A stretch of 64,000 nucleotides of DNA from a virus. Shown here piece by piece: positions 28,732 to 63,314 of the stretch. The translations under genes and the position numbers were made by a program. The notes beneath the pieces are model-generated. The model saw nothing but the letters and a program-made list of their open reading frames with translations. It made no database searches and had not been told where the DNA came from. Each line of letters begins with the position of its first letter. The stretch's first letter is position 1. The DNA is taken from the IMG/VR virus record IMGVR_UViG_3300010885_040738, positions 29,185-93,184 of that record; one strand, written 5' to 3'.

Positions 28732-29214
28732 ATGGCCGCAGCTACACTCACCACCAACGCGCCTGGTCGGCAATCCTCGCCAATCAATGTTGCCACCTTC
28801 ATCCCTGTCACGGTCACCCTGACTGCAACCGTTTACGCGGCGGCCAGCGGCGGCGCTCCGATCGACCTCACAACCGTCCTCCAGCAGGCAGCGCCTTCTG
28901 GCTGGGATGCGCCCAACTATGTTCAGGCGATCAACCCGGCTGACGTCGTTGGCATTTTCGCCCCAAACCTTTCGACAAACGGATTCCTGCCGATGTCGCT
29001 CGTGATCGGGACCCCGACGTACACGGCGGTTCCCGGGCAGTCCGCCAACGGCGTGTCTGCCACTCCCGGCATTCTTGCCACCTGCCCTGCAACGTTCCGC
29101 CTCTTCGGGACTGGCGCAGGTAACGCCCTCGCTCTCGCTCAGGTGGCTGACGGTGCCGTCACCGACGCCGTCACCTTCTGGCTTGTCGTCATGCGCAACG
29201 GCGCGAACAACTAA
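28732..29214 (+). CDS. Small beta-rich virion protein
   Basis: The 160-residue protein (MAAATLTTNAPGRQSSPINV...) is rich in Thr, Val and Ala and strongly beta (FIPVTVTLTATVYAAASGGA, TPTYTAVPGQSANGVSATPG). AAGGAG lies well placed before ATG 28732. The composition fits a head decoration or tail protein of high copy. No family is known to me. Confidence 0.55.
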   Translation: MAAATLTTNAPGRQSSPINVATFIPVTVTLTATVYAAASGGAPIDLTTVLQQAAPSGWDAPNYVQAINPADVVGIFAPNLSTNGFLPMSLVIGTPTYTAVPGQSANGVSATPGILATCPATFRLFGTGAGNALALAQVADGAVTDAVTFWLVVMRNGANN

Positions 29215-45935: not shown

Positions 45936-48900
45936 ATGGCCGATCAGCAGGGATACGACGTAGCAGGGGCGCGCAAAGCTGGTCTGTCTGACGATGACAT
46001 TCTTGGGTACCTGAATCAAGATAAGTCGTACGACGTTGACGGAGCCAGAAAGTCTGGCCTTTCCAATGACGACATGATCGGGTACTTGGCCAGTCGGCCA
46101 GCACCTGCAGCGAAGGTTGCCATGGCTGGTGCCTCGCCCGCTACGCCTGCTACCAAGCCAGTGCCCATCACAGGGCCAGTCCCGCCGGGGCTGATCGGTC
46201 CGGTAGCTACACCCGAGCAGGCTTTTGAGGCTCAAAAGAATTACGTGCCGGGCATCCCGAAGATGTCGGCATTGCCCAACGATCTGGATGAGTTGCCGCG
46301 AAGCTTAGCGACAATTCGCGCTCGCGCAGAAGGCCCCGTAGATCGACGTGTGCCGCCGGGGCCAACGGGCCCGCCGACTACACCAGAGCAGGTCGTTGCG
46401 ACCCAAAAGCAACTGTCGCCGTCAATTCCTAAAATGTCGGCATTGCCGACGTCCACGATGGATGACGTTGATGAATTTCAGCGGAGGATGAACGAGCCGA
46501 CCGGCAACCGCGTACTTGACGCAATTAGGACCGGCGACTACCGCAAGCTTGTCCCGCCAGCACCGCCGGCAAAACCAGCGACGATTACTCCTGAGTCAAC
46601 CGATCAGGATATCGAAAACGCGGCATCGGAATCGTTTTTTCATCACTCCGATCAAATAGGGCGCGGTGCCGCACGTGCCCTTGGTGCATTTGTAAGCCCT
46701 GAGAGTCTGGATTCGATGGCGATGATCGCCATGACTGGTCGCGGGCTTGCTGCGTTGGCGAATACACCAAAACTGGCGAGGGCGCTTCGGAATGCGCCGG
46801 AAGTCCTGAAAGCCCTTGACGTAGCGGCAGGAGCCGCAGTCCCTGCCGCTGTTGCCGGGTACGGCGGCGCGCAGTTGCTCACGCAGCCTGCACCATCGAA
46901 CCTTGAAGAAGCAACGGAAACAGCGATAAATGCTTTGATCCTCGGCGCAGGCACCATAGGCGCGATCGAAGCTGGCAAGAGTGTCCTGTCCAGGTACGCA
47001 GCGGAAACCAGCGGCAATGTAAGGATGCCCGGCGGTGCGGAGGTCCCGGCTAAGTCTGTCGGCGGTATCCCGGAAGTTGACCCACGCCAAGCGGCCGCGA
47101 ATGCTGCGGCACTCGAATCGCAGGGGCAGAACCTTGCGGCGATGTACTGGAATGGGCGCAACCTCAACGCACCAACTGAATTCTCGACTACCGCTGGAAG
47201 GATGTTCCTTCAGCCCGCACAGATTATAAAAAAGGCCGGCGGCAAGGTTTATCGCTATGAATCGGTACTTGATGCGGACGGGAATCTGGTCGTCGGTGGA
47301 ACGCCTGAGACGGTAAGGCAGTGGCTGGAGCACCGGAAAGCCAAAGTCAATACCTATGCTGCTGTCCCGGGGGCTGGCGGAGCGCCGCTCATCGCTGATG
47401 TCGGGACTGTCCAAACTGGAGCGTCGAACCTCAAGGCTGCGCCTGGAACCTTTCAAACGGCTGACACTGCGCTTGAATCTGACGCACCTACGCCCCCCGT
47501 AACGCAGCAGCCCCTTACCCCCGTTCAGCAAGCCGCCGGCAACCTGATGCAGGATACTTTGGGGTTCAATCCCATGGCCCCGGGCACCGAGTCTGCCGCG
47601 CCGCAGCTCATTCCTGACATCAAGGCATTTCAGAAAGCCCGTGCCGCGTGGTTGAAGCAGACGAGCGCTGCACGAGATGAATGGGAACTGGAGTCGGACA
47701 AAAGGGCAGTTGCTTTCATGGAGGCCAACCCGGGCGTTACGTGGGAAGACGCCAAGGCCGCGACCGCAGACCATGCTCCAGCGCCACAGCCCGGGCAGGA
47801 GCCGCGCCCCGAGGATTTCAAGACTCTCGCGCCTCCGCCGAAAGTAGAGCCGGTCAAAGAAGTAAAGCCGGACAAGACGAAGATCGTCACGGGCCGGACG
47901 AATAATCCGCCGACAGCAGCCACCGCAACGACGCCAGAAAGCCCGGAGACAATCGCTGCCCAGGTTACGCAGCTTGGCGAAGGCACCCGCCGCGTGGTCA
48001 TGTTCCCAAGGGGGCAAGGCCAGCCAGCGCAGTTTCCCGATAACGTCGGCATCACGAGCGATGGCCTCGGCAATACCTACGCTTACAACAAAGACCTCAT
48101 CACCCCGGCAGCCGTCCAGACGGCCGCACGCAACAACACGCTCCCGGAAATCCTTGGCCACGCGCAGATGGGCATGGGTGCGCCGGACAAGTCCATGCTG
48201 CAAGGCGATGTCGTTGTCGTTGTGGTTCGTGACGCGAACGGCGTGGAGGTCCAGTCCACCGCCACGGATGAAGCGCATTTGGAGCAGACCACGGCTGCGT
48301 CTCAGGCACTTATGCCGGAGGGTGGATCGGTTGGTATTGAGACTCCGGAGCAGGCGGTTGGGGGGCGGACTGAGGCGCCCGCTGCGCTTCAGGCTCCCGG
48401 TCGGGTTGGCGGCGGGGCTGAGGCAGGAGGCGCGCCAGTCCAGCCGCCGGAGCAAGAAGTAGCCAGCGAATATGACGGCGTGCCACTTAGTGTGCTGAGC
48501 GCATTTCCTGGTATGATCAGCCCCGGTCTGGACCTCATCCCGCTAAGTAACTTTAGCCAGACCGAACAGGCTGCACTTCGTAGTGCTGGATTAGTAGAAA
48601 CCGGAACATCCAAGAGCGGAGAATATGAGGGCGTAGACTCGGGAAAACTATGGCCGTTGCGTAGCGCCGCATCCGATGCCGGTGCAGGCAAGACCAGCAC
48701 CCACATGCCAGCCCCACCAACGCAGTTCCTGCCGCCGCGTCAGGTAGGAGGGGAAACGCCCACCGGTGACGATGCCCTGATTGGGGGGCGGACTGATATC
48801 CAGGCTCCTGCGCCATTTAAGTTCCCGCTACTGGCCCCATTTAGCCAAACATTCAAAAATCCGATCGTGTCCGTCGGCAGTATCCGTGATATTTACCCAG

Positions 48901-51900
48901 AGAGCACATTTAGTCAGTCTGACTATGTAGCATCGGCAACGCCAACTCTGGATGATGACGACTTGGAAACCGGGTGGCTTTCAATCCCAGCCATTAACGG
49001 AGGCGTTCTCATTGATCCGCAAAGTGGCAAAGCACTTTCGTTCATCGGAGATGGGACCCCGGAAGCGACAGGGCGAGCCAAGTCGGAGGCGCAGACATGG
49101 GCGATAGAAAATCGCATCAAGCAGCCGATTAAATCGGCAACTGCCAGCATTCAGGCCCCCGGCAAGGTTGGGGGTGTGCCGGATGCGGTAGTTGCCAGAG
49201 ATGCGAAGCGGCTGGCAGATGCAACGCAGGCGATTGAGCAGGCAGCGGCCAGCGGTCAAAAGATTACCGGCCAGCAGATCCAGCGCCAATTCCAGTTGGG
49301 CTATGGCGCTGCGGAATCATTGCTCAAAAGCTTTGGGCTGGACTACCTTGGGAACCCGATAGCTGAGCAGCAGCCCCCCGCGCAAGAACTGACTCCCGCA
49401 GGTGCAAAGATTCTCGACACAATCCAGTCGCCCGAACCTGACGGGCTGACGGCGCGTATTGCGGAGTGGACATCGCGAGACGGCAGCAAGAAAGGTTTCT
49501 CGGTTGCGTTTCAGGACCCCGAGAGCGGCGAGTTTCTGCCCGATATTCGCACAGCAGAGACGCTGGAACAGGCTCGGCAGATTGCGCGTAAGGCGCTTGG
49601 CATACCGGAGCCCGATATCCCTGAGCACATGGAGAACTCGTGGCAGGCACTGCAAGACGCCATGCGCTCCGTTGTAGTCGGCGGCGAACGGCAGAATCAT
49701 CCAGACCCAGTTGCGATTGATGTCTTGCGCGCACTTTCAAAAACGCCCGGAGGACTCCGCGCATTCGATAGCCTTGTCGCCAGCCGAACAGAACAGCAGC
49801 CGACCTTTCTTGGCGCTGGCGTTGGCCATGCAGTTCTGGATCTCGGGAACGGCGAAGTCCTTAAACTAGGGAAACTACAGAAACAGGAGCGTTCGCGGTA
49901 TGCCTTGCAGCCGGAAGTCTCCGGTGAGATTGGCTCCGTCGCGTATGCCATCTATCCGAAACTTGATACATCTGGAATCAGTGACGCCGATGTGGACCTT
50001 GTTGATGCGCAATTGCGCTCCGAGGGCTTGGAATGGAGTGATGCAGGGAAAGACAATCTCGGGAGGGACGCCAATGGGGATCTGAAGATTCTCGATGGCG
50101 ATGTCACTCGCAAGCCAAGCGTTCCCGCGCCGCGCCCGGTTGGCGGAGAAGCCTCAATTACTGCCGCTGGTGAATTTGCAAAGAAAGAGATGGCCGAGCA
50201 GGAGCGCTTGGAATCGCTAAACACTGGCAAGTGGGCGGGAATGAGCGGTGCGCAGATAGCAGATGCCGCGAAAGAACTCGGGATTAGCACGGATGCCTTT
50301 GCTGAGGCGACCACCAGAAGGCAGCAAATAGCTGAACGCGGTCGGCTGATCGAAGCCATTCAGGCAAAAGAAGCGGCCAAGTCCCAAACCATTCTTCCCG
50401 CACCGCGCCCGGTGGGAGGGGAAGCACCAGCACCAGAAGAAAAAGCACCGACCATCTCCAAAGATCGCGCTCAAGCAATCATAGCGCGAGTCAGCGCAGT
50501 AATGGATGAGGCCGTTAAGGCGGGAGTAATCGGCCAAGAAAACGTTTCCGATGCGATCGCAATGGTTTTGCGCGATATCCCGGATGACGCCACGGATGCG
50601 GAGATGGATCAGGTCATCGCGCTTCTTCGTAGCGAAGCGCTGGCGCCCATTGACCGCGTCGAGATGAAGCACCCGCTGACGTACTTCACGGGCTCCAGCG
50701 GCCCGGGAGTAGAGAAGCGCGCCAACGAGCGCGGCGACATCGGGCTGCTGATTACTCCGCTGATTGACTACCTTGGCAAGGTCCAGCACTACCCGGTCAT
50801 CGCGGTTGATAACGGCGCATTCTCCAAGGCAACGCCGTTTAGCGCTGATAAGTTCCTTGCCCTATTGGACAAAGTCGCGGCAGATCCTGAAGTGGCGCGG
50901 AAAGTTCAGTTCGTCGTAGCCCCAGACACGCCGATGGACGCGAAAGCGACATTGGAGAAGTTCCCGATGTGGGCTGCAGAGATTCAGAAGCGCGGCCTGC
51001 CGGTCGCTCTTGCTGGCCAGAATGGGCTGGAAGACATGATCGACCAGATTCCATGGGACGATTTCGATACCCTGTTCATGGGTGGCGATGACGAATGGAA
51101 GCTTGGGGATTTCAAGGACGAGGCTCAAAAGAAAAAGTGGCTTGACCTTTTGTGGGAAGCCGGGCAGCGCGGCAAGAAGATCCATGTCGGCCGCGTCAAC
51201 AGTTTCAAGCGCTCAGATTTCTCCAATTACCAGATGGAGGCAATCTCTGTTGACGGAACCTATTTAGCGCACGGCCCGGACAAGAACCTGCCAAAGCTGG
51301 AATCCTGGCTGAATCGCATAAATGAGCGGCCATACTCGATGGGCCCAAGGTTTCCAAACCCGCGCCCCGACGAAGCAGAGGATTCGGACTGGAGCGGCGA
51401 TCCGTTGGAGTTCGCGCCGTATCGCGGTAGCGATGCAATGTGGGAAAGCCGGAACGGAAAGTTCCTGATTTTTGATCAGGGCGATAACAGTCCGCTTGGC
51501 AAGTTCAGTCTGGTTGATACCGAAACCGACGGCACTACTTACCACAAGAGCTACGCTGCAGCTGTCAAAGCCGCACGAGAGGAGGCGCCGCCGATCGCGC
51601 CCGGGCAGGCACCGGCACCGGAGCCAGCTAACGGCGAAGTAGTCTCCTGGGACGAGGCTGAAACCCTACTGGCTACGGCTGATGCTTTTGGTGGCACGAT
51701 TACGCGCATCAGCGACACGCTTATTCACGCCGAAGCAAATGGGCGCAGGTTGGCATTTGAAAAACTTCCGGATGGGAAAGTCAGGGTAGGTCCTATCAGA
51801 GCAGAAGCACCCGCGGCCGCTCCCGCGCCAACGGCCCCAACCCCCGCACAGCCCAACTACGCACCTGAAGGCATCACGAAAGCAGAGAAATATGTAGGCC

Positions 51901-54900
51901 GGCTCGCATATCAGGCAAAGAAAGATTACGCCCGCGCCTATCTGGACCACCTGACGCTGGACGAAGCAGCGCCCGCTCGCGGCAAACTTTCAGAGGCATT
52001 AGAGAAGGAAGTAAAAAACGAGATCAACAAGCATCTGGGCAAGCGACTGGCAAAGGCTCCGGCCGCCAAGGCTCCTGCAGCCCCAGCCGTTCGCGAACTT
52101 GCCGACTTCCTCAAGCCCGGGGCCCCGCCGATTGACTGGTGGAAGACCGACGGCATCAAAGCCGACTGGGAGACGGTTCGTAAGGCTTACGCTGCACGTG
52201 CGCAGCGACCGGAAGGTGCCGGGCAGACATTCCTGGACTACACCCGGGATTGGGAAGACAATCGCGCCGAGGCTGGGTTTGACCGCCGCACTGCGGAAGC
52301 CGCAACTCAGGTTGAAGCGCCCACAACTCAGGTTGCAGCACTCACCGATCTCGACAGGTCTCTGCTGGAGTATCTGGGCAAAACCAAAACGTCGGAAGAT
52401 CTGCTGTATTTTGAGGGAGCAGGCGAAGGCGAGCAGGGGCTGAAGGACATGAACAAGGCCCTCGCTTCACTTGCAAATCGTGGACTTGTTGCCCGCGAGT
52501 ACAGCCAGACCGGCGGTGATACCAAGTTCTGGCGCACGCCTGAAGGCACCAAGGCGCTGCGCGAGAAGAAGCCAGTCACCCCGCAGATCCAGACCGGCGT
52601 GGCCGGGGCGACTCCGCTGGGGGTGAAGCCAGAGCAGATGGAAGCCACGCAGGCAGATATCCTGCTCCGAACGGCGACAAGGAAAATTGACGAGCTGATC
52701 GAGCAGGCTGAAACAGCCCTGCGTAACCAAGGCGAGAACAATGCGCGAGCGGTTCTCGACCAACTATCTGCATTCCTGCCTGCAGCACGCGAGCGCGTAG
52801 CGAAGCTTGCCTCATCTGCAGATGGCGGCTATGTGGACCGGCTGGAGTCGGCTATTGCTCGGGCTGAGGCTGTCATCGGGCGGTACGCCAAGAAACCCGC
52901 CGCTCGCGCCGCGCAGCCTTCAGCGGAACGGTTTGACGAACTCTCGAAGGAACTTGCCGAAATTGAGAGGTCGCCTCAGTACCGGCAGGACACAGAGGCT
53001 GGCAGAAACGCCCGGGAGTCAGCAAATTCTCTCAGTGTAGACGTGGCATTCCATCGCCCGGCGGCCATCGCCAGGGCGCAGGCTGAGATCGACGCGGAGA
53101 AGGCGGCTAAGAGCAGCAAGGCATGGAAGTACGAACTGAAAGCGGAGGGCAAGTGGAGCCAGCCGCTCGGGAGCCCGTTGGCGACGGAAGCGGAGGCGAA
53201 AGCCGCTGGCCAGAGCCACCTTGACCGGTGGATGATGGCTGAGGATGTCCGGACCGCGGAAGTTAACGAAAAGCCGACGCACACCTGGAACGAGGCGGAG
53301 CGCAGGCAGGAACCGATCCAGAAAGAGGCAGCAAATGCAGAAGGAAACACCACAAGCGGGGCCGCGACTAAGTCCGATGCAGGTAGCAAGACAGGCCCCA
53401 GAAGGCCTGGGGAAGCGGATACTGCGTCATTGGCAGAAGTATCGGCCGAAGACAGTTCAGAGGCTCAAGGCGAAGGGGCTCCTGAACGAGACGGTGAACG
53501 AGGCGGCAGAGGAGCACGCCCAGACGGTCAGCCAAATGCTGGGGGCGGGGTTCGGAGCGGATCAGGCGGACGAAGTGGCTCGGGAACCGTGGATCAGTCC
53601 GGAGACACGGACGGCGGACGACGAGGACCTGGAGACTTAGAGCGCCAAACCGAGGGCGGAGACTTCCGTATTTCCGACGCGGATCATATCGGAGAGGGTT
53701 CTCCGCGGCAGAAACTGAACGGCAACCTTGACGCGATCCGGATCGTAAAAGCCATTGAGAAAGACCCTCGTCCTGCAACTCCAGAGGAACAGGAGAAGTT
53801 GGCGAAGTATGTCGGGTGGGGTTCGCTGGCAAACGTTTTCGACTGGCGGAAGTCTGAGTTTGAGGGTGCTCGCGAAGAACTGAAGAAATTGCTGACGCCA
53901 GACGAGTACCGGGCTGCCGAGAAGTCGACATATAACGCTCATTACACGTCCCCGCTTGTGATTAGCTCTATGTGGGACGCCATGAAGCGACTGGGCGTAA
54001 AACCGGGGTTCAGCGTGATTGAGCCATCCATGGGCGTTGGCAACTTCTTCGGCTTGCAGCCCGACGGCCTCATGCCATCGCGACGGACCGGCGTGGAGCT
54101 CGACAAGATCACCGGCGCGATCGCGAAATTGCTGTACCCTGACTCAAATGTCCAGGTGACCGGATTCGAGCGCATTCAGTTGCCGCACAACTTCTTTGAC
54201 GTAGCCATCGGGAATGTCCCATTCGGCAACGTCGGAGTGGTGGACCCTTCTTACAGAAAGACTCCGGCCGCTACCAGCGCTATTCACAACTACTTCTTTG
54301 TTAAGTCCCTTGACTTGACGCGGCCCGGCGGCATCGTTGCCTTCATCACGTCTCGTTACACCATGGACAGTCTTGGCAAGGAAGTCAGGGACATGATCGC
54401 AGACAGGGCCAACCTGATCGGCATGTTCCGGCTGCCGAACACTGCGTTCAAGGGGAACGCCGGCACGTCGGTAGTCACGGATGTCATCTTCCTTCAGAAG
54501 CGAGCGCCCGGCGAAGCGCGGACTGGTCCGTCCTTTATTGAGACGAAAAAGGTTGCCACTGCTGACGGCACTGAGACTGATCTCAACGAGTACTACGCCG
54601 CACGCCCGGAAATGATGCTTGGGGAACTGTCAACGCAGGGCACTCAGTACGCGGCAGATAGCCAAACGCTTATCGGGAAACTGACTCCTGAGCTTCTCCA
54701 AAACGCAGTCAACCAGCTGCCGGAAAACATTTTCTCCGAATGGCATGCCGATACACCTTCGTTTGACGGCGAGTTTTACCAGCTTGGGGATGAGGTCAAG
54801 GACGGCGGGTATGCCATCAAGGATGGCGTCATCGTCCAGCGCGAGGGGAATATCTATCGCCCGACGGTAGTGGGCAAGACGCAGGGCGAGCGCATTCGCG

Positions 54901-57900
54901 GGATGATCCCCGTTCGTGCTGCTCTGCGTAAAGTTTTTGCTACACAACTAGAGGCTGAGAGCTCAGAGAAAGCTATTCTCGACGCACGCAAGGAGCTCAA
55001 TAAGGCTTACGACAAGTTTGTAAAGGAGCACGGCTATCTCAGCAGCGTTGCGAATTCACGCGCCCTCGGTGACGATCCAGACTACTCTCCGCTGGCCGGT
55101 GCGTTAGAGGACTGGGACCGCGACACCAAAACGGCAGCTAAAACCGACATTTTCACAAAGCGGACCATCGAACGTCCTTCTTTTCCTGATAAGGCCGACA
55201 CAGCTGCCGAGGCCATGGCAATGGTCCTGAATGAAAAAGGGCGACTCGACTGGAACCGCATGCAGGAACTCACCGGCAAGTCACTGGATGAGTTACGTGC
55301 AGAGTTAACAGGCCAGGTGTTCAAGAATCCTGACGGGCAAATCTGGGAGACCGAGGATGAGTACCTTTCAGGCAACGTCCGAAAGAAACTGCGTATAGCT
55401 GAGGCCGCGGCAGGTATTGACCCCTTCTACCAACGCAACGTTGACGCCCTGCTGGCTATCCAGCCCGCCGACCTTCTCCCAGAACAAATCAAAATCGTCC
55501 CTGGCGCTCACTGGATTCCGGCTACGACCATCCAGGAATTCCTTCGCGAAGTTCTGGGCCTTGATAGCGCGAAGGTCCACCACGCGGCGGCCGTGGCAAC
55601 GTGGTCTATCAATGTCCCCAACAGCTACGAACTTGATCGTACGCAAAACAAGAGTTTTGGGACTGAGAATTTCACAGGCGTCAAGCTGTTCGATATGTCG
55701 CTGAACGGCAAGGCCCCGCGTGTTTATCGGCCAGGCCCGGGCGATACCAGAATCTTTGACCCCAAAGCGACGGCGGTCGCCTTGGCGGCTCAGGATGCGC
55801 TCAACGATCGCTTTAGAGAGTGGATATGGCATAATCCATCACGCGCCCGAGAACTCGCGGAGATTTATAACCGGGAAATCAACAACATCCGGAACGTGGA
55901 GCATAACGGCGCGCATTTGACCCTCCCGGGCAGTAACCCGGCGATTGTGCTGCGGCCGCACCAGAAGAACGCTATCTGGCGAGCGCTGAAGACTGGCAAC
56001 ACGCTGCTCGCGCATGAAGTCGGAGCCGGAAAGGCCCAACCTCTCGATGCTAAAATCCTAACTCCGTCCGGATGGAAGTTGATGGGCGATATGACCGTCG
56101 GAGATCACGTGATTGCCGGCGACGGGTCGGTTACATCGGTTGAGGCCGTTTTTCCCCAAGGCGAGAAAGACATCTTTCGGGTTGAATTCAGCGATGGGAG
56201 TGCTACCGAGTGCTGTGACGAACACCTTTGGCTTACACAGACATATCAGGAGCGGAATCAGGCGCAACGGGCCGAGAAGGCAGAAAAAGACTGGAATTGC
56301 GGGAAGGCGGAGGTCCGGTCTCTAGCGGAAATCCGTAATACGCTGATCGCGCCACATCTGAATGCGAAGAATCACAGTATCCCTATTGTCGGTGCCGTTC
56401 ATTTCAATGCTCAGCCGGTCCCTCTGCATCCTTACCTACTCGGTACTTTGATTGGTGATGGGTGTTTCCGTGGGCACGGATCTGTAAGCATTTCGTCCGC
56501 CGATAAAGAACTTTTGGACGCGATTAGCCTTCTACTGCCAGCAGAATGCGAACTTCGACATCAGTCAGCCTACGACTACGTAATTGCTTGGAATGGACAG
56601 GCGCGGTACGCAGTCGGTGACGGAATGGTTCCGTCGCACCCGGTCGTAAACGCAGTTAAAAGCCTTGGCCTTTGGGGGAAGTACTCGTACGAAAAGCATA
56701 TCCCGGAATGCTACCTATTTAATTCGCAAGAAGTCAGGGCCAGCCTGCTGCAGGGGTTGATGGATACCGACGGGACTGTCACGCGGCGCGGCACTTCGGT
56801 TGAGTATTGCACGACTTCCCCCAAACTCGCGGCGCAGGTCACTGATCTTGTCAGATCTCTCGGCGGCATTGTCGCTCTTCGCTCTAAGCAGCCAGGTTAT
56901 ACGCACCAAGGTGTCAGGAAGATAGGACGTGTCGCATTTACGCTGACATTGAGCCTGCCTCCGTCAGTGCTTCCCTTCCGTCTTTCCAGAAAAGCAATAC
57001 TGGTCACGCCGAAGACAAAATACCACCCGGCCCGCTATATCACGAACGTGGCCCCTGTTGGCAGGAAGCAGGCGCAGTGCATTCGCGTGGCGCATCGTTC
57101 TCACCTGTATGTAACGGACGATTACATCGTCACCCACAACACATGGGAAATGGTTGGTATCGCCATGGAATCCCGTCGGCTTGGCCTGTCTAAAAAACCG
57201 ATGCTGGTTGTGCCAAACCACATGGCAGAGCAGTTCACGAATGAGTTCCTGCAGCTATACCCGGCAGCGCGCATCCTCACGATCGGGAAAGAGGACTTCG
57301 CCGCAGATAAGCGCAAGCGTGCCACTGCGCGCATCTCCGGCGGGAACTGGGATGCAGTCATCATCAGGCATAGCAGTTTTGAAAAGATCCCGGTCTCGGA
57401 TGCAACATTCAAGGCGTTCATTGACCGTCAGGTTGAAGAATTAAAGGCTGCGCTGGAAGCGCAGGAAGCTGAGACGGCCTCGGCACAAACAACCGGGAGA
57501 CGCGGACGCGGAGGGAAGAAGAAGGTCGATAAGTCCGTCAAAGAAATCCAGAAGGCGATTGAGCGGCTGGCTGTAAAACTGGAAAAGCGACTCAATCGCG
57601 ACAAGAAAGATGACGCAGTCACGTTTGAAGAGTTGGGGGTTGACCTTCTGCTAGTGGATGAAGCCCACGCCTTCAAGGCGCTCCCAATCGTCACCAGGCG
57701 CACGCGAGTTGCTGGTATCCCGAACCGCGAAAGCAACCGGGCGACCGATATGTTCATGAAGACCCAGTACGTGGGCGACCTGAATGGCGGGCGTCGTGGC
57801 GTTGTATTCGCCACCGGCACTCCGGTGACCAACACCATGGCAGAACTTTACAACATGCAGAGGTACCTGCAGTTGAAAACTCTGCGCGAGGCAGGGATCG

Positions 57901-60900
57901 AGCACTTTGATGCTTGGGCGAACGCATTCGGGATGATCCGCACTGGCGTCGAGCTTGACGTATCCGGCAAGGGATTTAGGGAGAATACGCGGTTCGCGAG
58001 ATTTGTCAACATCCCCGAATTGATGGCGATATACAAGCGCGTTGCCGACATTAAGACGGCGGCTATGCTGAACCTGCCCACGCCGGAACTTTTCACCGGC
58101 AACGTTGAGCCCATTAGCGTAAAGGAGACCCCTGAGCTAACCGCCTACGTGGACTACTTGATTGACCGGACTGACGTTATCCGTGGCGGCGGAGTGGACC
58201 CGAAAGACGACAACATGCTGAAGGTCGTCAGCGAGGGCAAAAAAGCGGCTCTTGATATGCGCCTTGTAGACCCGGAGGCGCAGGACCGGCCCGAGAGCAA
58301 GGTCAACACCGCTGTCGGGAATATTTACAAGATATGGGAGGAGACGAGCGACGATAAACTAACCCAGTTGGTTTTTTGCGACCTGTCGGTACCGTTGTCA
58401 GCCAAGTCACGCAAGGCCAAGAAGCAAAAGCCGACAGACGAAGAACAGCAGGCAGAAGATGAGCTCGACGCAGTTCCGGAAGCGGCCGGTGAGGCTGCTG
58501 GGTTCAGCGTCTATGACGACATGAAGGCGAAGCTTGTCGCAAGGGGCATTCCGGCAAAAGAAATCGCCTTTATCCACGACTACGATAGCGACGACGCCAA
58601 GCAGGACCTGTTTGATAGCGTCAAAGCGGGCCGCGTACGTGTGCTTTTCGGATCAACCGAAAAAATGGGTGTTGGTACCAACGTTCAGCGCCGCATGATT
58701 GCGCTCCACCACATGGATTCGCCGTGGCGTCCGGCTGACATTACTCAAAGGGAAGGGCGGATCAAGCGGCAGGGGAACAAGAATCCAAAAATACACATCT
58801 TCCAATACCTCACGGAGGGCTCCTTCGACGCCTTCATGTGGCAGACGCTGGAGACCAAGGCGATGTTTATCGCCCCGATTCTATCGGGCGATTCCAGCAT
58901 CCGTGAGATGGAAGACATCGGGATGGTGCTTCCCAGCGCCGCCGAGTTCAAGGCCATGGCGTCAGGTAACCCGATTATTAAAGAAAAGATCGGCACCGAT
59001 TCGGAGTTGGCACGGCTCGACGCGCAGCGGAATGCTTTCCGCCGGCAACAGGCTGGCGTGCGGGAGCAGATCGAAAAGCTTCCTCGCGATATTGCTTGGA
59101 AGCAAAGAGATATTGCGCGAAGGCAAAGCCAGTACGATTTTGTGGAGGCACATCAAGCCGAGGGATATACGATCGAAGGGGTTGCGTTCACTGGCGCTGA
59201 TGCGCGGAAGAACGCGGCAGCCGCGCTACACGCCGAATTGAGCGGCACCCTCCGTTTAGGTGGTTCGCCATCTAAAGTGGGGACATACAAGGGACTTGAT
59301 ATCGTTGCGTGGCCTGGGAGCGGCAGTTACCCGCGCCTCACCGTCAACATGCCCGGCAGTGCTTATGATTCGCAGTTCGGCGAAATAGGGATTTCTTTCC
59401 CTGTGTCTACCAACGAAGATAATCCGCTCGGCACACTTCAGAGCATTGAGGCTGGGGTTAGGATTTACATTACCTCACCGGAAAAGCAAAGTCTGGAGCT
59501 TGAGGAACTACTTCGTAAGCAGAAAGACCTTGAAGACCAAGGCGAAAAGCCGTGGCCGTACGAGAATCGCTACAACACGCTGGTAAAGAGAAAAATCGAG
59601 ATCGATGCCGAGCTTGACCAAAGTGAAGCAGAGAGAGTCGGCGGGGCCGAAGACGGCGAGGATACGGTCAAGCGCGTGGAGCGGCGCGGTGTCTCATATC
59701 AGGAGCGCAAAAAGCTTCTACTTGCACGTGAACGTGGCGAGAATGTTGAGTACCCGCCGCTACAGGCCCGGCACGAAGTTGGGAGTGCGCCGATGCCATC
59801 TGCGCCCGCGATCAGAACGACGAAGAACTCTGGGCCCATGTCGGCATATACACCCGGAGATGGCGAACTGGCTCCTCGCCTAAATGCTGACAGAACCCCC
59901 GTGCTTCCTACTTGGTACAGGCAGGAAATTGACGGGAAGAATTTTTACTCTGATGGCGTTTTCGTAATCCAAGGAGATACGCCAGAAGGCAAGATCGTCA
60001 ATAATGATGGGCTGAAATCATACGTGAAGCCGCAAGATGGGCAGGTAGAGATGGGCCCGCTCGCGTACTCGATTGACAAGCCAAGAGATGACGGGTCAGT
60101 CCTGCGACGTGTCTGGTTGAGCCCGCGGTTGGCGGTTGACTCCATCCCGTTCGACTACGTCAAAAAACGTTTCCCCGACGCAACTTTCTGGGCCACCGAT
60201 AATCCGACCAAGCCGGTGACGGTAAGGTCTGGCGATGATGTGGTTGCCGTCATCATGCCGCTGCGCGAAACTGCTCCGCCAGCAAATATCGAGCCCGCAC
60301 TGTCAGCCAAGCCCCGCACATCCTCCGTAACCCTCGGCATGGGGCCCGGGCAGGAGATGTACGAGGCGACGGCGAAGTACATCAAAGAAGAGACGCTGCC
60401 ATGGGTAAAGCGCATTCTGAGCGAAAAGGCGACCATGGGCCGCGCTCTGGTGGAGATCCTTGACCCGAGGTACAACACGCCGCGCCCGATCATGGACACG
60501 GTTTCCAAGATGGCTGGCGGCCGGTCCATGGCCGAATACCTGGTTGCGAAGAAACTGGACAACTGGAGCCAGAAGTTCAGCAAGATGAGCCGTCAAGACT
60601 CAATTAACTTTGTGGACCGCGTGAAGGCTGGCTTACCGCAGCCCGACGACGACCTGCAGGACGCCGCGGACTTCATGCGCCGGATGGACGATCAGGTCTG
60701 GAGCTCCATCCCCGAGGACCGGCGGCCGGCGTATCTCGAAAACCACTTCCGCGTCATGTGGAAGGTGATTCCGGATTCCAATAAGGCGATTGCTGCACGT
60801 GAGGCCCGGGCGCAAGAGCTTGTGGACGGCATGACCGATCCGACGCGCCAAGCATACGCGCAGGACTACCTCGCCTACATTACAGAGCAGACTCCTGATG

Positions 60901-63314
60901 AGCCGGAGATCCCGGAAGGCGTTCAGCCGGCCGTGGCCAGAAAGATCCGCCTCCGGATTGACAAGATCCTTCAGAGCAAAGCTGGGGGCACCGGCTACGT
61001 CGGGGCTTCGCGCAAAAACCTTCGAGGCACCCGAAGCTTTCTCAACCAGCACACTCTGGAGTCAATGTCCGAGGGCATGGAGCACGGAGGTGAACCGGTC
61101 TCCTACAACCCGCTGCTGATGTTTGCGGCCCACTACAACGACGCCATGAAGTACGTGACGGCGTTGCGGATGATCGAAAAGTTTAAGGCAGACGGCACAG
61201 CACGTTTCCTGAAATCCGGGAAGCCGATGTTTGATGGTTACGCCAAACTGGATGACAATGCGGCTCGGGTGGCGCTGAAGACGCCGCAAGGGTTTGTTGC
61301 GACCGGCGAATGGGTATTCCAGCGCAACGCGGCAAACCTTCTGAACAACATGCTTGGGCGCGATTACCTGCGTGAGGTCTACGAGGACGCCCCGATGTCG
61401 CGGTTTACCGGCCGGGCCGGACGTTCACTGCTCAACATCAAAAACGCCTACACTGCGATCGAGCTCGGGTGGTCACCGTATCACGCGGTATTTGAGGGAA
61501 TCGAAGCGGTCGGCTCAATGATGGGCATCGGACTGCGGGAAAGCTACAACACCGGCATCGTCCCGCTGGTGTCGTTCGCGCTGGGGATTCCGACTGATGT
61601 TGGGGTGACGAGCGCAAAGACAGCTTTCAAGAACATCGCGAAGGGCGTCGGAACATTAGCAACGTCCCCTTGGGCGTTCGTGTCCGCTGCGCAGGAAGGG
61701 GCGCAGGCTCGCCGCGGCTGGACCGAAGAGGTGATTGGCGCCGTCGACAATGTAAAGCCGAAGCTGTTTGACAAGCTTCTTCCGGAAGTCGCCGTTGATT
61801 ATCTGATGGCCCGGCGCGCTGAGCGTGCGATGAAGAAGACCGTCGCCGGGCGTCAGTTCGTCAAAAACAACCCAGCTGCAGCGCAGGCAATTCCGTACTA
61901 CTTCATCGGCGGCGGGAAACTTGGCCTGCCGGAGGAATTCGAGACACACGGGGCAGAAGAGCTTCAGCGGCACTGGAACGACATGCTGGACAAGCAGCGG
62001 ACCGGCAATCAGCGGGTGAGTTCGGGTCTCCGTGCCGGGCTCAAGGCGCTGCCGGCGTCCAGCCAGTACATGCTGAAGCCTTTGTTCCAGAACTACATTC
62101 CAAATCTGAAACTGGCGTTTTTCCTCCGCGAGTTTGGGCTTGCTCAGGTAGAGCGCGCCGGCGAGCTGGAGCGCGGCGAGATTACTTTGGATCAGATTGC
62201 CCGGCTGGTCGTCGGGTCAGTGGAAAACAGATTTGGCGAAATGAACTTTGATCGCCTGTTCTGGGATCGCACCATGAAGACCTTCCTGCAGATCCTGTTC
62301 CGCTCTGTTACCTGGAAGATCGGCGAGCTGTCGGAACTGGGGCGGGCGGTTTACGGTCAAGGGAAAGGTTTGCAACGTGATATTGGCAAGGGCCGCATCC
62401 CGCGGCTTGACCCAAGCATGGGCTGGCTTGTTGGCGTTGCCCTTGCGGCCGCGCTGGTCGGCACCGTGTTGACCATGGCGACGACAGGGCACCCGCCGAA
62501 AGATATGCAGGGGTTGCTTTACCCTGTCATTGATGACAGCACGGGCCTGACCGTCGCACTTGCGTCTTATATCAGGAACTACTTCCACATGAAGCATGAC
62601 CCGGTTGGCTATGTGAAGTCTTCGTTTCAGGGCGAGGTCGGCAAGGTCATGGACGTCATCAATAATCAGGATTTCCGGCATCAGAAGATCTGGCAGGACG
62701 ATGACCCGATGTACCAGCAGGCTATGGACGCAATGCTGCACCTGCTTCCGGAGCCAATCACTTCTGGCGGGATCAAGAAGATCCGGCAGGGCGACACCAA
62801 AGAGGGCATAGCCAGCATGCTCGCGTTCTCAAAGGCACCCGCCTACATCGACAAGACCCCGGCTGAACTGCTGGCGCAGGACATTGCCGGACAGCATCGC
62901 AGTGTTGGCGGGCGGTCCAAGGCCGCAGCAGACAAGGCGGAAGCCGCCAGCCGCATTCGCCGCGCATACAAAGCGGGCAACACAAAGGGCGCAGAGGACC
63001 TGATCGCCAAACAGGTCGCCGCCGGTGTTATTTCCAAGTCCGACGGCAACACCTACCGCAATCAGGCAGGGAGAAGCCCTCTCGACGCCATGGTGAAGCA
63101 GTTCTCCGTATCCGAAGCTCTTCGCGTCTACGACAAGGCCGAGGCTGACGAAAAGAAAACGCTGGGGCCAATTGTCAAAGCAAAGGTCTGGCGCGCCAAG
63201 AACTATCACCCAGCAGAATTCGGCGATCCCGGGAGCAACACATGGAACCTTGCGACGAAACACTTTGGGGTCAAACCGCCACCGGCCGCACGTCAGGGGC
63301 AGGTGACTCAGTAA
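45936..63314 (+). CDS. Giant polyvalent virion protein: TGT-like, DarB-type MTase-helicase, intein
   Basis: The 5,792-codon protein has these parts in order. Residues 4-53: two YDVxGARKxGLSxDDxxGYL units. 60-200: Pro-rich, with TPEQ...IPKMSALP twice. 225-320: hydrophobic helices. 330-1250: linkers with P-x-x-V-G-G repeats. 1254-1392: possible kinase-like segment. 1576-1795: TGT/DpdA-like barrel (VDNGAF, FVVAPD, GGDDEWKLG, GKKIHVGRVNSFKR). 2137-2220: winged-helix-like. 2594-2860: adenine methyltransferase (motif I EPSMGVGNFF; NVPF at 2760). 3345-4300: SNF2-type helicase (VGAGK-T split by an intein, VDEAH at 3907, TQREGRIKRQG). About 5429: ENRFGEMNFDRLFWDR, PLxRFG-like. 5496: membrane helix. 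P1 DarB and Bcep22-type giant proteins are injected with the DNA to block restriction. Confidence 0.85.
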   Translation: MADQQGYDVAGARKAGLSDDDILGYLNQDKSYDVDGARKSGLSNDDMIGYLASRPAPAAKVAMAGASPATPATKPVPITGPVPPGLIGPVATPEQAFEAQKNYVPGIPKMSALPNDLDELPRSLATIRARAEGPVDRRVPPGPTGPPTTPEQVVATQKQLSPSIPKMSALPTSTMDDVDEFQRRMNEPTGNRVLDAIRTGDYRKLVPPAPPAKPATITPESTDQDIENAASESFFHHSDQIGRGAARALGAFVSPESLDSMAMIAMTGRGLAALANTPKLARALRNAPEVLKALDVAAGAAVPAAVAGYGGAQLLTQPAPSNLEEATETAINALILGAGTIGAIEAGKSVLSRYAAETSGNVRMPGGAEVPAKSVGGIPEVDPRQAAANAAALESQGQNLAAMYWNGRNLNAPTEFSTTAGRMFLQPAQIIKKAGGKVYRYESVLDADGNLVVGGTPETVRQWLEHRKAKVNTYAAVPGAGGAPLIADVGTVQTGASNLKAAPGTFQTADTALESDAPTPPVTQQPLTPVQQAAGNLMQDTLGFNPMAPGTESAAPQLIPDIKAFQKARAAWLKQTSAARDEWELESDKRAVAFMEANPGVTWEDAKAATADHAPAPQPGQEPRPEDFKTLAPPPKVEPVKEVKPDKTKIVTGRTNNPPTAATATTPESPETIAAQVTQLGEGTRRVVMFPRGQGQPAQFPDNVGITSDGLGNTYAYNKDLITPAAVQTAARNNTLPEILGHAQMGMGAPDKSMLQGDVVVVVVRDANGVEVQSTATDEAHLEQTTAASQALMPEGGSVGIETPEQAVGGRTEAPAALQAPGRVGGGAEAGGAPVQPPEQEVASEYDGVPLSVLSAFPGMISPGLDLIPLSNFSQTEQAALRSAGLVETGTSKSGEYEGVDSGKLWPLRSAASDAGAGKTSTHMPAPPTQFLPPRQVGGETPTGDDALIGGRTDIQAPAPFKFPLLAPFSQTFKNPIVSVGSIRDIYPESTFSQSDYVASATPTLDDDDLETGWLSIPAINGGVLIDPQSGKALSFIGDGTPEATGRAKSEAQTWAIENRIKQPIKSATASIQAPGKVGGVPDAVVARDAKRLADATQAIEQAAASGQKITGQQIQRQFQLGYGAAESLLKSFGLDYLGNPIAEQQPPAQELTPAGAKILDTIQSPEPDGLTARIAEWTSRDGSKKGFSVAFQDPESGEFLPDIRTAETLEQARQIARKALGIPEPDIPEHMENSWQALQDAMRSVVVGGERQNHPDPVAIDVLRALSKTPGGLRAFDSLVASRTEQQPTFLGAGVGHAVLDLGNGEVLKLGKLQKQERSRYALQPEVSGEIGSVAYAIYPKLDTSGISDADVDLVDAQLRSEGLEWSDAGKDNLGRDANGDLKILDGDVTRKPSVPAPRPVGGEASITAAGEFAKKEMAEQERLESLNTGKWAGMSGAQIADAAKELGISTDAFAEATTRRQQIAERGRLIEAIQAKEAAKSQTILPAPRPVGGEAPAPEEKAPTISKDRAQAIIARVSAVMDEAVKAGVIGQENVSDAIAMVLRDIPDDATDAEMDQVIALLRSEALAPIDRVEMKHPLTYFTGSSGPGVEKRANERGDIGLLITPLIDYLGKVQHYPVIAVDNGAFSKATPFSADKFLALLDKVAADPEVARKVQFVVAPDTPMDAKATLEKFPMWAAEIQKRGLPVALAGQNGLEDMIDQIPWDDFDTLFMGGDDEWKLGDFKDEAQKKKWLDLLWEAGQRGKKIHVGRVNSFKRSDFSNYQMEAISVDGTYLAHGPDKNLPKLESWLNRINERPYSMGPRFPNPRPDEAEDSDWSGDPLEFAPYRGSDAMWESRNGKFLIFDQGDNSPLGKFSLVDTETDGTTYHKSYAAAVKAAREEAPPIAPGQAPAPEPANGEVVSWDEAETLLATADAFGGTITRISDTLIHAEANGRRLAFEKLPDGKVRVGPIRAEAPAAAPAPTAPTPAQPNYAPEGITKAEKYVGRLAYQAKKDYARAYLDHLTLDEAAPARGKLSEALEKEVKNEINKHLGKRLAKAPAAKAPAAPAVRELADFLKPGAPPIDWWKTDGIKADWETVRKAYAARAQRPEGAGQTFLDYTRDWEDNRAEAGFDRRTAEAATQVEAPTTQVAALTDLDRSLLEYLGKTKTSEDLLYFEGAGEGEQGLKDMNKALASLANRGLVAREYSQTGGDTKFWRTPEGTKALREKKPVTPQIQTGVAGATPLGVKPEQMEATQADILLRTATRKIDELIEQAETALRNQGENNARAVLDQLSAFLPAARERVAKLASSADGGYVDRLESAIARAEAVIGRYAKKPAARAAQPSAERFDELSKELAEIERSPQYRQDTEAGRNARESANSLSVDVAFHRPAAIARAQAEIDAEKAAKSSKAWKYELKAEGKWSQPLGSPLATEAEAKAAGQSHLDRWMMAEDVRTAEVNEKPTHTWNEAERRQEPIQKEAANAEGNTTSGAATKSDAGSKTGPRRPGEADTASLAEVSAEDSSEAQGEGAPERDGERGGRGARPDGQPNAGGGVRSGSGGRSGSGTVDQSGDTDGGRRGPGDLERQTEGGDFRISDADHIGEGSPRQKLNGNLDAIRIVKAIEKDPRPATPEEQEKLAKYVGWGSLANVFDWRKSEFEGAREELKKLLTPDEYRAAEKSTYNAHYTSPLVISSMWDAMKRLGVKPGFSVIEPSMGVGNFFGLQPDGLMPSRRTGVELDKITGAIAKLLYPDSNVQVTGFERIQLPHNFFDVAIGNVPFGNVGVVDPSYRKTPAATSAIHNYFFVKSLDLTRPGGIVAFITSRYTMDSLGKEVRDMIADRANLIGMFRLPNTAFKGNAGTSVVTDVIFLQKRAPGEARTGPSFIETKKVATADGTETDLNEYYAARPEMMLGELSTQGTQYAADSQTLIGKLTPELLQNAVNQLPENIFSEWHADTPSFDGEFYQLGDEVKDGGYAIKDGVIVQREGNIYRPTVVGKTQGERIRGMIPVRAALRKVFATQLEAESSEKAILDARKELNKAYDKFVKEHGYLSSVANSRALGDDPDYSPLAGALEDWDRDTKTAAKTDIFTKRTIERPSFPDKADTAAEAMAMVLNEKGRLDWNRMQELTGKSLDELRAELTGQVFKNPDGQIWETEDEYLSGNVRKKLRIAEAAAGIDPFYQRNVDALLAIQPADLLPEQIKIVPGAHWIPATTIQEFLREVLGLDSAKVHHAAAVATWSINVPNSYELDRTQNKSFGTENFTGVKLFDMSLNGKAPRVYRPGPGDTRIFDPKATAVALAAQDALNDRFREWIWHNPSRARELAEIYNREINNIRNVEHNGAHLTLPGSNPAIVLRPHQKNAIWRALKTGNTLLAHEVGAGKAQPLDAKILTPSGWKLMGDMTVGDHVIAGDGSVTSVEAVFPQGEKDIFRVEFSDGSATECCDEHLWLTQTYQERNQAQRAEKAEKDWNCGKAEVRSLAEIRNTLIAPHLNAKNHSIPIVGAVHFNAQPVPLHPYLLGTLIGDGCFRGHGSVSISSADKELLDAISLLLPAECELRHQSAYDYVIAWNGQARYAVGDGMVPSHPVVNAVKSLGLWGKYSYEKHIPECYLFNSQEVRASLLQGLMDTDGTVTRRGTSVEYCTTSPKLAAQVTDLVRSLGGIVALRSKQPGYTHQGVRKIGRVAFTLTLSLPPSVLPFRLSRKAILVTPKTKYHPARYITNVAPVGRKQAQCIRVAHRSHLYVTDDYIVTHNTWEMVGIAMESRRLGLSKKPMLVVPNHMAEQFTNEFLQLYPAARILTIGKEDFAADKRKRATARISGGNWDAVIIRHSSFEKIPVSDATFKAFIDRQVEELKAALEAQEAETASAQTTGRRGRGGKKKVDKSVKEIQKAIERLAVKLEKRLNRDKKDDAVTFEELGVDLLLVDEAHAFKALPIVTRRTRVAGIPNRESNRATDMFMKTQYVGDLNGGRRGVVFATGTPVTNTMAELYNMQRYLQLKTLREAGIEHFDAWANAFGMIRTGVELDVSGKGFRENTRFARFVNIPELMAIYKRVADIKTAAMLNLPTPELFTGNVEPISVKETPELTAYVDYLIDRTDVIRGGGVDPKDDNMLKVVSEGKKAALDMRLVDPEAQDRPESKVNTAVGNIYKIWEETSDDKLTQLVFCDLSVPLSAKSRKAKKQKPTDEEQQAEDELDAVPEAAGEAAGFSVYDDMKAKLVARGIPAKEIAFIHDYDSDDAKQDLFDSVKAGRVRVLFGSTEKMGVGTNVQRRMIALHHMDSPWRPADITQREGRIKRQGNKNPKIHIFQYLTEGSFDAFMWQTLETKAMFIAPILSGDSSIREMEDIGMVLPSAAEFKAMASGNPIIKEKIGTDSELARLDAQRNAFRRQQAGVREQIEKLPRDIAWKQRDIARRQSQYDFVEAHQAEGYTIEGVAFTGADARKNAAAALHAELSGTLRLGGSPSKVGTYKGLDIVAWPGSGSYPRLTVNMPGSAYDSQFGEIGISFPVSTNEDNPLGTLQSIEAGVRIYITSPEKQSLELEELLRKQKDLEDQGEKPWPYENRYNTLVKRKIEIDAELDQSEAERVGGAEDGEDTVKRVERRGVSYQERKKLLLARERGENVEYPPLQARHEVGSAPMPSAPAIRTTKNSGPMSAYTPGDGELAPRLNADRTPVLPTWYRQEIDGKNFYSDGVFVIQGDTPEGKIVNNDGLKSYVKPQDGQVEMGPLAYSIDKPRDDGSVLRRVWLSPRLAVDSIPFDYVKKRFPDATFWATDNPTKPVTVRSGDDVVAVIMPLRETAPPANIEPALSAKPRTSSVTLGMGPGQEMYEATAKYIKEETLPWVKRILSEKATMGRALVEILDPRYNTPRPIMDTVSKMAGGRSMAEYLVAKKLDNWSQKFSKMSRQDSINFVDRVKAGLPQPDDDLQDAADFMRRMDDQVWSSIPEDRRPAYLENHFRVMWKVIPDSNKAIAAREARAQELVDGMTDPTRQAYAQDYLAYITEQTPDEPEIPEGVQPAVARKIRLRIDKILQSKAGGTGYVGASRKNLRGTRSFLNQHTLESMSEGMEHGGEPVSYNPLLMFAAHYNDAMKYVTALRMIEKFKADGTARFLKSGKPMFDGYAKLDDNAARVALKTPQGFVATGEWVFQRNAANLLNNMLGRDYLREVYEDAPMSRFTGRAGRSLLNIKNAYTAIELGWSPYHAVFEGIEAVGSMMGIGLRESYNTGIVPLVSFALGIPTDVGVTSAKTAFKNIAKGVGTLATSPWAFVSAAQEGAQARRGWTEEVIGAVDNVKPKLFDKLLPEVAVDYLMARRAERAMKKTVAGRQFVKNNPAAAQAIPYYFIGGGKLGLPEEFETHGAEELQRHWNDMLDKQRTGNQRVSSGLRAGLKALPASSQYMLKPLFQNYIPNLKLAFFLREFGLAQVERAGELERGEITLDQIARLVVGSVENRFGEMNFDRLFWDRTMKTFLQILFRSVTWKIGELSELGRAVYGQGKGLQRDIGKGRIPRLDPSMGWLVGVALAAALVGTVLTMATTGHPPKDMQGLLYPVIDDSTGLTVALASYIRNYFHMKHDPVGYVKSSFQGEVGKVMDVINNQDFRHQKIWQDDDPMYQQAMDAMLHLLPEPITSGGIKKIRQGDTKEGIASMLAFSKAPAYIDKTPAELLAQDIAGQHRSVGGRSKAAADKAEAASRIRRAYKAGNTKGAEDLIAKQVAAGVISKSDGNTYRNQAGRSPLDAMVKQFSVSEALRVYDKAEADEKKTLGPIVKAKVWRAKNYHPAEFGDPGSNTWNLATKHFGVKPPPAARQGQVTQ
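53335..53640 (+). CDS. Small phage protein nested in another frame of the giant gene
   Basis: ATG 53335, with GAGG 6 nt upstream, opens 101 codons in the +1 frame of the giant gene, ending at TAG 53640. The sequence has the pattern of a known small phage family: PMQVARQAPEGLGKRILRHW, QKYRPKTVQRLKAKGLLNET, a helix VNEAAEEHAQTVSQMLGAG and A-R-E-P-W-I. The H-W-x3-R-P...L-x-x-x-G-x-L motif is typical; TnpV-like proteins are distant relatives. In the giant frame the same bases give Gly/Ser/Arg/Asp low complexity. So this frame is the older, selected one. The stop lies about 20 codons before the methyltransferase domain. Confidence 0.7.
   Translation: MQKETPQAGPRLSPMQVARQAPEGLGKRILRHWQKYRPKTVQRLKAKGLLNETVNEAAEEHAQTVSQMLGAGFGADQADEVAREPWISPETRTADDEDLET
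56034..57140 (+). other. Class 3 intein with LAGLIDADG endonuclease
   Basis: A 369-residue intein splits the helicase Walker A motif between Lys and Thr (AHEVGAGK | intein | TWEMVG). It begins with Ala (AQPLDAKILTPSGWKLMGDM), not Cys or Ser. It carries the class 3 trio: Trp at intein residue 66 (CDEHLW), Cys at 349 (QCIRVAHRSHLYVTDD) and Thr at 367 (IVTHN). The endonuclease has both motifs, YLLGTLIGDG near 136 and LLQGLMDTDG near 238, with the acidic residues intact. The frame is open throughout, so splicing should restore GAGKT. Class 3 inteins are known mainly from phages and prophages. Confidence 0.88.

Follow-up and report, generated by a model that had tools for sequence, protein, structure and literature searches.

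A probable functional gene nested in the +1 frame of a giant DarB-like phage gene

The DNA analysed here (the window) is a 64,000-nucleotide stretch of the IMG/VR virus record IMGVR_UViG_3300010885_040738, positions 29,185 to 93,184, and contains a giant open reading frame (ORF) of 5,792 codons, within which a second, 101-codon ORF is read in the +1 frame. We conclude that this nested ORF, at 53335-53640, is probably a functional overlapping gene with its own start (probability about 0.8), a judgement resting on homology, start signals and codon-level patterns. The features concerned, in window coordinates, are as follows.

45936..63314, + strand: giant ORF, 5,792 codons, encoding a polyvalent protein with a DarB-like LPD36-methylase-helicase half
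53335..53640, + strand: nested gene, 101 codons, ATG start, +1 frame of the giant ORF
53325..53328, + strand: GAGG, a Shine-Dalgarno-like motif six bases ahead of the nested ATG, read directly
53428..53607, + strand: conserved core of the nested protein, residues 32-91, from HW through the acidic tail, from alignments and the predicted local distance difference test (pLDDT)
53245..53334, + strand: codons that might extend the nested ORF at its N-terminus if a more distal ATG were used; not conserved
53664..54539, + strand: LPD36 (GEGS motif) and adenine methylase, in the giant frame directly downstream of the nested gene

Homology, start signals and selection in the two frames

The DarB-like half of the giant ORF is matched by PHROG_10089 over the codons of 52887-54935 (E 3.5e-147), and the LPD36 GxGU motif followed by the NPP(F/Y) adenine methylase motif is present in it (GEGS and NPPF in the alignment). 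Polyvalent proteins of the LPD36-methylase-SNF2 type are thought to shield incoming DNA from restriction (Iyer et al. 2017, PMC5512222). Across the bases of the nested gene the giant frame encodes a low-complexity linker rich in Gly, Ser, Arg and Asp, as a sequence-only reading of the window had observed; that reading had also described a complete small gene bearing a family pattern, and this too holds, the 101 codons having their own GAGG and ATG and homologues in the same +1 frame. The nested protein carries the motif HW..YRP..L..KGLL..........A..L...G.....A.E.AR. Because the +1 frame is stop-free from 53236, initiation at the upstream ATG at 53245 (131 aa) is possible; the start at 53335 is preferred. 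Length does not single out the nested ORF, since the giant ORF holds five alternative-frame stretches of at least 134 codons; what sets it apart is homology, with 129 homologue matches among the loci fetched (given L numbers below) against at most 8 for every other alternative-frame stretch. A chance ORF, which length alone would not exclude, is ruled out by this homology together with the codon signature described below.

A first IMG/VR scan with the single window protein gave no matches, and the homologue search in that database worked with an alignment-based query. By tblastn the small protein found no match among plasmids, and among phages it matched only within DarB-like/PLxRFG giant genes, including one of a Microcystis phage. 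In all five annotated phages checked (SopranoGao, POI1126, VvAW1, Itty13 and Pavtok) the match falls within the giant gene and is read in its +1 frame, and the same nesting was found in 51 of 52 IMG/VR loci, the exception being Sinorhizobium phage PBC5, as well as in additional, newly found loci. Homologues, which the sequence-only reading had proposed looking for, occur in phages that infect Klebsiella, Erwinia, Vibrio, Pseudomonas and rhizobia and, beyond phages, in verrucomicrobial conjugative elements and Bacillota plasmids; they are in +1 and lie a short way ahead of the LPD36-methylase-SNF2 (DarB-like) module. The gene is also present in the nearest relatives of the window, L196 encoding a nested protein 42% identical over 80 residues, and phage JC1 has a divergent nested ORF.

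Prevalence was estimated by searching IMG/VR with the LPD36-methylase domain alone and keeping the 80 best matches, that is, the viral loci closest to the window's own domain. Among these, 58 score above 12 bits with the small-protein profile, the best match always being in +1 and within the giant ORF; another 15 hold a divergent ORF in +1 at the corresponding position, which in several cases scores weakly with the profile, and a further 5 have a TnpV-type nested gene situated more upstream. At least 58 and up to 78 of the 80 therefore carry the nested gene, none having been recognised in the other two (L265 and L274). It is almost never annotated in these relatives; pipelines seldom predict one gene within another, and a conserved gene has gone unnoticed as a result. 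In Pseudomonas phage Itty13 (L005, MW460249) the giant ORF is itself unannotated, and the deposited hypothetical proteins cover it on the opposite strand.

A Shine-Dalgarno match of at least 4 bases precedes 51 of 53 distinct nested starts, compared with 22% of background ATGs. In six clades of close relatives (at least two members each), substitutions in the overlap pile up at the wobble position of the nested frame, the wobble position of the giant frame is at or near the least variable within the overlap, and this inverted codon-position pattern changes over exactly where the nested ORF begins and ends. Scanning the whole giant ORF in three clades located the inverted signature at the nested gene, edges included, and at one further site in the rhizobial clade. 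That the apparent conservation is a shadow of constraint on the giant frame is ruled out, its wobble sites being the least variable in the overlap. Over the same bases, mean pairwise identity is 0.48 in the nested and 0.40 in the giant frame, the nested value being the higher in 130 of 153 pairs; identity and codon signature together place the stronger conservation in the nested frame, as the sequence-only reading would have it. The giant frame is nevertheless kept open: were codons recoded synonymously at random, about 4 stops per gene would be expected in the giant frame, where 0 are observed, and codons ending in T before AA, AG or GA number 0 of 1303 in the nested gene against 292 of 2522 elsewhere, figures which, as the set has open giant frames throughout, describe a constraint and are not a blind test. 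Viewed as a test for an overlapping gene, selection in the nested frame with a signature confined to the overlap was found in six related clades, and sequence evidence points to an own translation start.

Relation to TnpV and other genomic settings

On profile comparison the nested family is a remote branch of the TnpV (PF14198) superfamily. TnpV was matched by 26 of 36 family members and the next Pfam family by 3; hhalign against nine TnpV-type proteins returned a probability of 96.7 (P 3.7e-10 over 81 columns), so that profile-profile homology extends to genuine TnpV proteins. The phage members, at E 1e-5 to 1e-2 and below 27 bits, do not reach the curated PF14198 cut-off. A Cohnella plasmid encodes a protein annotated as TnpV (PF14198 E 1e-30) that is nested in +1 within a 2,086-codon LPD36-methylase ORF, which is itself not listed in the plasmid table.

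The predicted fold of the window protein is a helical bundle with pLDDT of about 90 or more over residues 31-80. The highest Foldseek probability in the PDB went to the DUF1896 structure 2apl (probability 0.92, TM 0.50, but E 1.3). Fold and synteny (see below) make DUF1896 suggestive as a homologue, but homology is not established by profile comparison: the nested family gave no Pfam match to DUF1896 (PF08989), and hhalign assigned DUF1896 6-9% against the nested family and 0.7% against TnpV. Among predicted viral folds the best match was Q8W6J4, a 1,093-residue model which is presumably the PBC5 fusion. In PBC5 (L294) a frameshift ahead of the small gene splits the giant gene, whose N-terminal half runs into the small protein, and it is because this run is in frame that PHROG_938, labelled 'endolysin', ends with the small protein. 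Only the C-terminal 57-100 of its 2185 profile positions match, with no wider match, and an endolysin identity was rejected on the ground that the PBC5 fusion explains the similarity. The gut scaffold MT836741 (L293) also has a frameshift-split giant gene; it was ruled out as an instance of separate genes, since its TnpV is nested in a 940-codon ORF. The frameshift in these two records is either a sequencing error or a real mutation.

Verrucomicrobial conjugative elements have the LPD36-methylase module as a gene of its own, roughly 1,700-2,000 codons long, with the nested gene close to its 5' end, so that nesting does not depend on the N-terminal half of the giant gene. These proteins have a short N-terminus with QLDLF or QLSLF just before the overlapped linker (L150:9931-10250 and L164:9829-10220), a peptide resembling, in sequence, one that binds the sliding clamp. 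In Bacteroidota, all five loci fetched (L189, L190, L191, L192 and L195) have a separate DUF1896 gene directly before the LPD36-methylase gene, the two overlapping briefly in four.

The small gene seldom stands alone; the seven standalone copies are dispersed among nested ones in a tree of weak resolution, that of Variovorax (L147) falling within a nested clade. This copy and that of Pseudidiomarina (L145) adjoin type I restriction loci with hsdM, hsdS and hsdR in both, and McrBC also stands beside the latter; other standalone copies adjoin integrase or mobilisation genes. Genome searches within the taxonomic family of the Variovorax locus and the taxonomic order of the Pseudidiomarina locus showed that such copies are very rare.

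Origin of the overlap

From the wide range of hosts and the unvarying +1 phase, the nesting would seem to be ancient. Tentatively, and at somewhat worse than even odds, we favour overprinting, by which the giant or LPD36 gene would be the older, the small gene would have originated de novo as a +1 reading of the linker and the rare standalone copies would have escaped later. The nested form is near-universal in the sampled set, with the Variovorax copy inside a nested clade and the standalones dispersed, and LPD36 proteins exist that have no nested gene, namely P1 DarB and those of Bacteroidota. A newborn overlapping frame is usually the disordered one of the pair; here it is the nested protein that has an ordered helical core and the giant frame that is of low complexity, the opposite pattern, and this counts against overprinting.

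The low complexity of the linker and the selection borne by the nested frame speak for read-through, which is the origin that the sequence-only reading had proposed: a small gene would once have lain between two others, which became one when their stops were lost, leaving the linker frame as the younger. In the form of three neighbouring genes this proposal was not supported. No relative with three separate genes was found, nor any within the nested family in which the TnpV-type gene and the LPD36 gene are apart; the same +1 nesting recurs across several phyla, even in Verrucomicrobia, where the N-terminal half is missing; and the only split cases, PBC5 and MT836741, are frameshift splits in which the small gene is still nested. 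Nor does the label 'fossil frame' suit a giant frame that is kept free of stops. A very old read-through would be compatible with the separate DUF1896 gene, briefly overlapping in most loci, that precedes the LPD36-methylase gene in Bacteroidota, and with the 2apl fold match, whose weight is lessened by the profile results for DUF1896. We consider it unlikely, though worth keeping in view, that at the root of the LPD36-methylase lineage a small partner gene, until then separate, came to be read through and stayed locked inside from that time on, giant polyvalent proteins having been enlarged through the overprinting of intervening genes.

In relatives the same giant ORF holds another gene nested in its +1 frame, about 65-75 codons long and some 6 kb further downstream.

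L032:16013-16234: second nested gene; equivalents in L036, L045, L025, L022, L124, L127 and others

It has the motif IDPPSPFDTLQ.WK.W...VSKWP..DP.RQ.YLKQARQ.I..KS and shows the same inverted codon signature in the rhizobial clade; none was found in the window with the rhizobial profile. Should read-through be true, this gene would be another instance of an overprinted intervening gene.

Function and comparison with known systems

In the mechanism we propose, a 101-residue, mostly helical protein of the TnpV superfamily would be translated from its own Shine-Dalgarno motif and ATG on the mRNA of the giant gene, its gene occupying the +1 frame of a presumably disordered linker ahead of the LPD36-adenine-methylase-SNF2 (DarB-like) module. 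The nested frame would bear the amino-acid-level selection, while the giant frame would be kept open and act as a flexible spacer. One message could thereby co-produce the giant DNA-protection protein and a small partner working with it, most likely a chaperone, loading or packaging factor on the lines of Ulx for DarB in P1, or a regulator of the methylase or helicase. A co-produced helper is, we infer, the most economical reading, and we rate the chance that the nested protein is a partner of the giant protein as only just short of even. P1 Ulx is a small protein encoded next to darB that 'aids DarB localization' (PMC9024508); the JC1 paper reports DarB in virions and, in that phage group, no homologues of the P1 helpers (PMC9144972).

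Several points weigh against this account. The partner role is read from linkage; in P1, DarB functions with no gene nested in its own and Ulx has no homology to the nested family, so that P1 was rejected as a case of it. In several of the wider plasmid relatives (Massilia, Rhodococcus, Bradyrhizobium), as in a Streptococcus element, no nested family member could be recognised. The window protein itself gave no match to Pfam, and with its predicted structure no solved fold in the PDB matched well. The codon signature, finally, comes from related clades; within the window's own clade the relatives are too far apart to allow its measurement.

That the protein instead acts directly on type I enzymes, as an anti-restriction or restriction-modulating factor, would agree with the standalone copies beside complete hsdMSR loci in Variovorax and Pseudidiomarina and with the inhibition of the EcoK and EcoB endonucleases by DarB (PMC9024508); with two independent cases of such adjacency only, and other standalone copies near integrase or mobilisation genes, we regard it as rather improbable. 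The existing TnpV annotation implies an Xis-like excision factor, and the TnpV of Tn4451 is indeed postulated, from its homology with lambda Xis, to take part in excision (PMC3158075), but a family linked across several phyla to LPD36-methylase genes, and not to one type of integrase or recombinase, makes this very doubtful. Scarcely credible is a programmed frameshift making the +1 segment the C-terminal tail of a truncated N-half product, as the in-frame continuation in PBC5 might suggest, for PBC5 is a single old, frameshift-split record, nearly all loci have their own ATG and Shine-Dalgarno motif, conservation starts at the ATG, and in many loci a stop closes the +1 frame shortly upstream of it.

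As the helper so far missing for DarB-type DNA-protection proteins the nested gene is a strong candidate, no homologues of the P1 helpers being reported in the JC1 group (PMC9144972), and TnpV, known as a transposon protein, gains a new context and with it a new hypothesis. The overlap is, besides, a broad case from DNA phages and plasmids on which to test how overlapping genes originate and are maintained.

Compared with known systems, the giant protein is itself one of the LPD36-methylase-SNF2 dyad polyvalent proteins to which DarB belongs, in whose description we found no overlapping or nested small gene (PMC5512222). P1 shares a small-protein gene adjoining darB (PMC9024508) and differs in that this gene is separate and downstream, with no homology to the nested family by hidden Markov model (HMM) comparison. 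With DUF1896 (PF08989; PDB 2apl) the likeness is a small gene ahead of the LPD36-methylase gene and a weak similarity of fold; the difference is that in Bacteroidota the gene is separate, its homology standing as set out above. TnpV is a remote homologue, and the TnpV-type members found here are likewise nested in +1 in LPD36-methylase genes, whereas the literature, in the portions consulted, describes an excision protein or transposase and makes no mention of nesting. Known nested phage genes such as lambda Rz1 in Rz and phiX174 E in D are like the present gene complete within another, in a shifted frame and with their own start; here, however, the host gene is among the largest that phages have, and the same layout is met with again and again, in phages as well as conjugative elements of several phyla.
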